A stretch of DNA of 48,703 bases. It comes from Prochlorococcus sp. AG-463-F15 (GTDB lineage: Bacteria; Cyanobacteriota; Cyanobacteriia; PCC-6307; Cyanobiaceae). Within the stretch, counting starts at the first letter, position 1. Each line of letters opens with the position of its first letter. This document shows positions 25,186 through 26,987 of the stretch, piece by piece. Location of the stretch: NCBI GenBank assembly GCA_003211755.1, contig QCRS01000004.1:1-48703 (forward strand), written 5' to 3'. A program made the translations under genes and the position numbers. The notes under the pieces were generated by a model that was not told the DNA's origin, ran no database searches, and saw only the letters and a list, made by a program, of their open reading frames with translations.

Positions 25186-25242
25186 TTCCTTTAGGACTTA
25201 CAGCGATGACAGAACTTAATCCATGTTTTCTGGAGTTGATTG

Positions 25243-26460
25243 ATGGGAAGCGTTAAGAAGGTTGTTCTTGCTTATTCTGGGGGTGTCGACACTAGTGTTT
25301 GTATCCCTTATCTGAAGAAGGAATATGGAGTCGATGAGGTTATTGCCTTTGCGGCTGATTTAGGCCAAGGAGATGAGCTTCAGTCCATCCGTCAAAAAGC
25401 TATTGATGCAGGCGCCAGTAAATCTTTGGTAGGTGATTTAGTTCAACCATTTATTGAGGATTTCGCGTTTCCCGCGATTCGAGCAAATGCTCTTTATGAA
25501 GGCCGCTATCCACTCTCCACTGCATTAGCTAGGCCATTGATTGCTCATCGCTTGGTTGAGATTGCGAGAGAAGTGAATGCGGATGCTGTTGCTCATGGTT
25601 GCACTGGAAAAGGTAATGATCAAGTTCGTTTTGATGTCGCAATAGGTTCATTGGCTCCAGACCTAAAGGTTATAACTCCTGCTAGGGAATGGGGTATGAG
25701 TAGAGAAGAGACAATTGCTTATGGAGAGCGATTTGGCATTCCTGCTCCTGTAAGTAAGAAATCTCCCTATTCGATTGATCTCAATTTGTTGGGTAGAAGT
25801 ATTGAAGCGGGTTCCCTTGAGGACCCAATGGCTTCTCCTCCTGAAGAAGTTTTTGAGATGACATCTTCTATTGATCAATCACCAGATAAGCCACAAGATA
25901 TTGAAATAAGTTTTGAAGCTGGTAATCCAGTTGCTATTAATGGAGAACGATTAGAACCTGTTTCAATCATTCGTAAAGCAAATATTTTGGCTGGAAAGCA
26001 TGGATTTGGTCGAATTGACATTATTGAGAACCGAGTAGTTGGGATCAAAAGTCGAGAGATTTATGAAACACCAGGTCTATTACTACTGATTAAGGCTCAT
26101 CAAGAACTTGAGAGCTTGACTTTGTCAGCTGATGTCCTTCGTCTAAAGAGTCAGTTAGAAAGAGAATGGTCAGATTTGATTTATAAGGGGCTTTGGTTTA
26201 GTCCTTTGAAGGATGCGCTAGATGGTTTTTTTGAACGCACTCAAGCTGTAGTAAATGGCCTTGTAAGGGTTCGTTTGTACAAGGGCAATGCAATAATCCT
26301 TGGCCGTGGCTCTACTACAAACAGTCTTTATATGCCAAGCATGGCTACTTATAGTAGTGATGATCAATTTGATCACAAATCTGCAGAAGGATTTATATAT
26401 ATCTGGGGTCTTCCTAGTCGTATTTGGGCAGCTACTAAAAGATTTCAACAACAGAACTAA
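25243..26460 (+). CDS. argG: Argininosuccinate synthase
   Basis: ArgG joins citrulline and aspartate with ATP to form argininosuccinate, the next to last step of arginine synthesis. The ATP-pyrophosphatase loop [10 protein letters not shown] is at residues 9-18, and [15 protein letters not shown] near 114-128 binds citrulline and aspartate. [17 protein letters not shown] near 177 and ESLTLSADV near 287 are family signatures. The start is ATG at 25243 ([14 protein letters not shown]), not the TTG three bases before: GGAG at 25232-25235 is at good spacing. Length 405 residues is normal. The gene ends 11 bases before the convergent rpsF stop. Confidence 0.97.
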
Positions 26461-26471
26461 TCTAAAACCTA

Positions 26472-26987
26472 TTAATCATTAGATTCTTTAGTTTCTGTAG
26501 CTTCTTTAGTCTCTTTAGTCTCTTTAGTTTCTTTAGTTTCTTTGGCGTCTTTAGTTTCTGTACCTTCTTTAGTCTCTTTAGTTTCTGTAGCTTCTTTAGT
26601 CTCTTTAGTTTCTTTGGCGTCTTTAGTTTCTTTCGCTTCGTCTTCGTCTTTTGTTGGCTCAGCTCCACTTGCAGCCCTAGGGGCTGGTAGTGGTCCATCT
26701 TGCTTAACGGTTAGGAAGCGAATGACATCTTCGCTAAGACGCATTGCTTTTTCCAAAATTTCAACATGCTGTCCATCACCGTTGTGGCTCAATTGGACAT
26801 ATATTCCTTCTTTGTGTTTTGCAATTGGATAGGCGAGCCTTCGTTTGCCTCGCGTCTGGCTATCTAAAACTTGTGCGCCAGCTTCAGTTACTAGTTCGCT
26901 GTATTTTGTTAGATGACTCTCAACTTCTTCTTCCGGTATATCCGGACGAAGGATATACATGGTTTCGTAGTAAGGCTGATTAGTCAT
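26472..26987 (-). CDS. rpsF: Ribosomal protein S6 with a long KETKE repeat tail
   Basis: S6 binds 16S rRNA together with S18 in the small subunit platform. Residues 1-97 are a normal S6 ([42 protein letters not shown]). After a linker (98-118) the protein runs on to 171 residues with a nearly pure Lys, Glu, Thr, Ala, Asp tail, built from ETK triplets and a larger unit beginning [11 protein letters not shown] that occurs twice. The usual S6 is about 95-135 residues, so the tail is an unusual extension and should be disordered and highly charged. The DNA under the tail (26475-26633) is a near-perfect tandem repeat. SD GGAG lies 5 bases before ATG but may be hidden in the leader hairpin at 26993-27032. 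Confidence 0.95.
26475..26633 (-). repeat. In-gene tandem repeat encoding the S6 tail
   Basis: Low-complexity repeat of CTTTAGT-type triplets on the plus strand. The block GTTTCTGTAGCTTCTTTAGT occurs at 26491 and again at 26581 (offset 90), and TTTGGCGTCTTTAGTTTCT at 26541 and 26613 (offset 72). The two offsets differ by 18 bases, that is six residues, so gain or loss has stayed in frame. Confidence 0.9.

Follow-up and report, generated by a model that had tools for sequence, protein, structure and literature searches.

The window, that is, the whole 48,703-base (48.7 kb) stretch of DNA analysed here, comes from a cyanobacterial assembly of 1.08 Mb in 69 contigs that is 55% complete; among named genomes, its closest relatives are single-cell Prochlorococcus genomes. 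Its minus strand carries rpsF, the gene for ribosomal protein S6. The reading frame is free of internal stops, and its product belongs to the bS6 family, matching the PF01250 profile at 98.7 bits against a curated cut-off of 27. The features of the locus are as follows.

25240..26460, plus strand: argG, convergent with rpsF; open reading frame ending at a distance of 11 bases from the stop codon of rpsF
26472..26987, minus strand: rpsF (ribosomal protein S6, 171 aa); open reading frame with a PF01250 match
26685..26987, minus strand: conserved core of S6, up to about residue 101 (GPLP), from the invariant columns of 31 aligned sequences and the core pLDDT
26475..26684, minus strand: variable C-terminal tail of S6, 70 aa, K/E/T-rich, predicted to be disordered, from the structural model and the comparison of tail lengths
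26475..26633, minus strand: tandem array of the 9-base unit AAAGAAACT, about 17 copies (K-E/D-T/A/G or T-E-T)

The array fills 159 bases, or 53 codons, at the end of rpsF. Tandem Repeats Finder describes it with a period of 9, 17.2 copies, 77% matches and a score of 184, the highest of its five rows in the window and the only one above 100. The first-pass annotation had reported tandem repeats offset by 90 and 72 bases, differing by 18, and a self-match bears this out: at offset 90, 61 of 69 bases agree with an exact run of 35 bases, and at offset 72, 72 of 87 agree with an exact run of 30, the 18-base gap corresponding to two additional KET units. The 35-base exact repeat was reached in none of 1000 codon shuffles and in 42 of 1000 shuffles of entire 9-base units; thus, the 9-base array lies far beyond chance and its higher-order blocks only modestly so. 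An origin from chance or composition alone was rejected on the codon shuffles. The description of the tail as almost only K, E, T, A and D is mostly right, with G, S and N each present once. The C-terminal stretch is of low complexity, as in the C-terminal low-complexity regions of ribosomal proteins. In a search of eight genomes, the only matches to a fivefold K-(E/D)-x pattern lay in the rpsF tails of the window's own genome, G000 (three matches), and of G017 (25 matches).

The convergent gene, which we take to be argG from its sequence, has a listed start at 25240, and its residue 1 was set at 25243 for tree building. It is convergent to rpsF in all 167 loci where it was found, out of 171 searched. 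Between the rpsF stop and the aligned argG end lies a median of 6.5 to 49 bases in the five tabulated Prochlorococcus-type genera, compared with 485 bases in the unassigned rows, which are mostly Synechococcus-like. Around rpsF, Rfam gave a single sub-threshold match (24.8 bits versus a gathering score of 41, E 0.53), promoter-like sites numbered 1 versus 1.7 expected and terminator-like sites 3 versus 1.3 expected; regulation by RNA was rejected on these counts. An open frame of 96 residues lies antisense to the array (window 26542-26832, plus strand). It seems to exist only because the repeat is without stops on the opposite strand, and it is taken as a mirror of the repeat and not as a gene. 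Elsewhere in the window, at 547-604, a 29-base unit, TTAAAATGACTCTATAAAAAGTTACAATC, occurs in about two copies where two open frames join.

S6 tails and their repeats among relatives

We gathered 217 S6 loci, comprising 80 named records and others from further genomes. The latter were selected on genus or family membership, on small genome size or, inside genus g18, on similarity of core score. Removal of 40 DNA duplicates and of six unusable rows in which the anchor pattern failed left 171 distinct loci. The dropped rows were L007 and L084, each truncated at the end of its contig, L208, also cut, L087, from another phylum, and L205 and L206, which have divergent anchors, yet whose ends are visibly K/E-rich and partly repetitive. 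In marine Synechococcus, Cyanobium and genus g35 the tail is short, at about 20 residues, and abounds in A, P, E and Q; the tails of the Prochlorococcus-type genera are longer and rich in K, E, T, S and D. The net charge is acidic in all groups, averaging -0.05 to -0.13 per residue.

A tail of fixed length and sequence in all relatives had been named beforehand as evidence against active slippage. Instead, the six complete tails of the window's genus measure 27, 31, 40, 43, 70 and 71 residues and are built from different units. Genus g18 would, from its genome size, be the high-light group. Of its 32 tails, from genomes of which 30 were chosen in part because their core scores were similar, 28 have a length of exactly 51 residues, and none holds a clear array; this near-fixed length indicates that slippage depends on the lineage and is not a general process.

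Each tail was compared with 200 shuffles of its own codons, and a tail passed when no more than two shuffles reached its score; a clear array required, in addition, a self-match score of 20 or more. The shuffle test was passed by 42 of 171 tails, 29 of them with the required self-match score. All of these clear in-frame arrays fall among the 97 rows of 29 Prochlorococcus-type genera, where 15 genera are represented, and none was found in the other 74 rows, some of which are unassigned Prochlorococcus records. Tandem Repeats Finder returned arrays of score 40 or more in 47 of 171 tails, and the period is a multiple of three in 45 of these 47, as in the selected in-frame amino-acid tandem repeats of the Borg type.

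The array units, taken locus by locus from self-match lags, span about 3 to 18 residues. They measure 3 residues in L020, 4 in L213 and L085, 5 in L203, 6 in L187 and L014, 7 in L183, 8 in L067 and L210, 9 in L189, 10 in L054, 12 in L066, 13 in L048 and 18 in L030 and L075; the window's own locus, L001, has a best lag of 9 residues and a basic unit of 3. Within genus g56, a common tail of 37-42 residues has undergone private expansions at L178, L210, L213, L085 and L066. A tree was built from argG and the S6 core for 96 of 167 rows, including 8 of the 32 g18 rows and 14 short-tailed unassigned rows. Its 25 array-bearing tips are scattered, often sister to plain tails (L005 near L001, for example), and call for at least 17 state changes, or 25 when unit lengths are treated as separate states, in a tree where about half of the inner branches, 50 of 93, are drawn open as weak. 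The arrays probably arose many times independently and are specific to lineages, and that of the window, with its 17 copies of 9 bases, is one such array.

Recent in-frame slippage growth had been proposed for the window's tail. The in-frame tandem duplication and the diversity of lengths and units within the genus speak for growth of this kind, read from species-level snapshots, many of them single-cell assemblies. The word "recent" fits other tails better: L189, in the single-contig genome G017, repeats a 27-base unit 9.5 times at 100% identity and L067 a 24-base unit 7.5 times at 98%, against a consensus match of 77% in the window.

For comparison with other proteins, we examined 32 conserved families of open reading frames within 20 kb around L16 in seven genomes, about 22 of which, judged by eye, are presumably ribosomal proteins. 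Their variable C-terminal ends reach at most 13 residues, one doubtful open reading frame (25 residues) excepted, and the S6 tails of the same seven genomes have 20 to 109 residues. S6 is not the sole repeat-bearing gene, since the 400 kb examined in G017 hold three strong coding arrays, two of them in other genes. One of the two encodes an AAQELK/Q protein (L245, 4921-5390) in which an 18-base unit recurs about 26 times, a stronger array than that of the window's S6; the other encodes a glycine-rich protein (L230, 16524-16878) with GGGGQGGY repeats and about 14 copies of a 24-base unit. Viral contigs were also scanned for population variants; the one match, weak at 39%, fell on a phage contig lacking any S6-like open frame and was put down to chance.

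Nature of the tail and alternative explanations

An assembly artefact in an amplified single-cell genome might account for the array, the window's genome being incomplete and fragmented. Two other draft contigs, L030 and L074, stop inside their rpsF arrays, so that some copy numbers may be underestimates, and the array seems to break short-read assemblies at these two loci. Comparable arrays are nevertheless present in the single-contig genomes G017 (L189), G046 (L172), G005 (L003), G084 (L163), G038 (L167) and G071 (L203); assembly error is therefore not a general explanation, and we consider an artefact very unlikely, although the exact copy number in the window may be off.

AlphaFold2, run on the window's S6 with 30 homologues, gave pLDDT values of 79-93 for blocks of the core and 38-56 for blocks from residue 101 on. 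Beyond its first block the tail stays at about 38-51 as coil only, and the model has no secondary structure past residue 96. The tail of the window's S6 is thus modelled as disordered, which again resembles the products of Borg-type repeats. Its high K/E content, and units such as KKEE in L213, could also suggest a charged single alpha-helix of the ER/K type, standing out as a rigid rod. In addition to the lack of a helix in the model, E-K pairing at i+3/i+4 is below that of shuffled tails (mean z -0.95 over 60 tails; -0.68 for L001). An ER/K helix is disfavoured on these two grounds, and a rod of this kind is extremely improbable.

Over the 28 g18 loci with 51-residue tails, pN/pS reaches 0.70 in the tail and stays at 0.024 in the core. 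We compared the tail variants with a mutational spectrum taken from synonymous core changes, with few core sites and with variants shared by descent not independent. On this basis the 114 distinct single-base nonsynonymous variants of the g18 tail include no stops versus 8.0 expected, 15 hydrophobic changes versus 29.2, 23 acidic (D/E) versus 11.9, 11 basic versus 11.0 and 65 others versus 53.9. The trend is the same in two small collections of g56 tails (n = 25 and 15), with 1 and 0 hydrophobic changes (5.8 and 3.0 expected), 11 and 5 acidic (3.3 and 1.8) and no stops (1.5 and 1.2). The tail sequence is therefore loose, and early ending or hydrophobicity is filtered out. This bears on an account by neutral drift, in which the tail would be dispensable, AT-rich, purine-rich coding ends would slip and the K/E content would be mutational. 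The tail pN/pS is near neutral, as drift would have it. Tail length and charge also track core GC3 (Spearman -0.80 and -0.72, uncorrected for kinship), so base composition alone may account for part of the K/E make-up. The missing stops, the shortage of hydrophobic and surplus of acidic changes, the 51 residues kept in most g18 tails and array periods that are nearly all multiples of three speak against drift, which we judge unlikely.

The tail might, by analogy, be a DNA-encoded stand-in for RimK, whose addition of glutamate to the S6 C-terminus affects physiology in Pseudomonas, according to the part of the source used here (PMC4741518). A tunable acidic length would then alter translation, and the net acidic charge of the tails would suit this. 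The RimK family (TIGR00768) had no match over cut-off in 14 genomes, one of them the 55%-complete G000, versus 7 of 14 control genomes. RimK is, however, equally missing in G041, a close relative with a short tail; tail growth does not track its loss, which argues against a simple replacement. The long tails, moreover, carry much basic residue as well (mean 0.17-0.23, versus 0.22-0.36 acidic). A stand-in for RimK is hence improbable. Much the same must be said of the further idea that the tail is a fast-changing, DNA-encoded tuner of the ribosome, its array length varying within a population and shifting translation or surface charge as RimK would; we hold this to be a distinctly doubtful proposal.

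A repeat-built tail and its known parallels

With neither a helix-pairing signal nor a simple replacement of RimK, a disordered charged bristle is favoured. The S6 tail is probably disordered and slightly acidic, kept for its length and make-up with its sequence almost free, and its repeats are rewritten by slippage or unequal exchange. In Prochlorococcus-type cyanobacteria it would be intrinsically disordered and of mixed charge, and selection would ask that it stay open, hydrophilic and long enough, leaving residue order almost free. Runs of purine-rich codons could duplicate in tandem through replication slippage or unequal recombination, slippage being the presumed DNA mechanism of the arrays. 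Such duplications would be tolerated because almost any in-frame repeat of K, E, T, A, D and S satisfies the constraint, and their independent recurrence would leave arrays specific to each lineage. By analogy, the tail is expected to lie exposed on the 30S surface, where it may serve as a bristle, soluble and charged, that is retained for its bulk and its charge.

Ribosomal proteins serve as evolution's steady yardstick; here, the end of one core protein is rewritten by DNA repeats while its composition is held. The S6 tails would form a natural set of independent trials, in which selection on a disordered tail asks for length and charge and not for sequence. They are also a candidate marker for length differences between strains of a globally abundant organism, and they offer a direct test of whether the length of a ribosome tail matters.

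In searches of the open-licence literature, no title turned up that dealt with S6 repeats in Prochlorococcus, although several systems are related. The RimK-modified S6 of E. coli and Pseudomonas is likewise extended with acidic residues at the same end of S6 (PMC4741518, in part). There, the glutamates are added by an enzyme after translation; here, relatives of the window gave no RimK-family match over cut-off. C-terminal low-complexity regions of ribosomal proteins, S6 included, are already known, at least 20 S6 orthologues having them (PMC6821194, in part). As described there, such regions are mostly C-terminal, like the window's tail, and lie on the ribosome surface, with A, E and K prominent; the section considered does not deal with a single protein whose repeats turn over again and again, lineage by lineage, within one bacterial group, or with selection on tail mutations. 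The S6 of Mycoplasma pneumoniae also has a long C-terminal extension; such extensions are reported to be common in bacteria and their disruption to affect fitness (PMC9534751, in part). The Mycoplasma extension has some secondary structure and a traced loop, whereas the tail described here is structureless in its model and built of repeats. The amino-acid tandem repeats of Borgs, unlike the S6 arrays, occur across archaeal elements, extracellular proteins being enriched in them, and the term "ribosomal protein" is absent from that paper's text (PMC9879509). In the same account, the Borg repeats resemble the S6 arrays in that their units are divisible by three, their turnover is fast and their products are disordered, and homologues share similar residues, as do the S6 tails.
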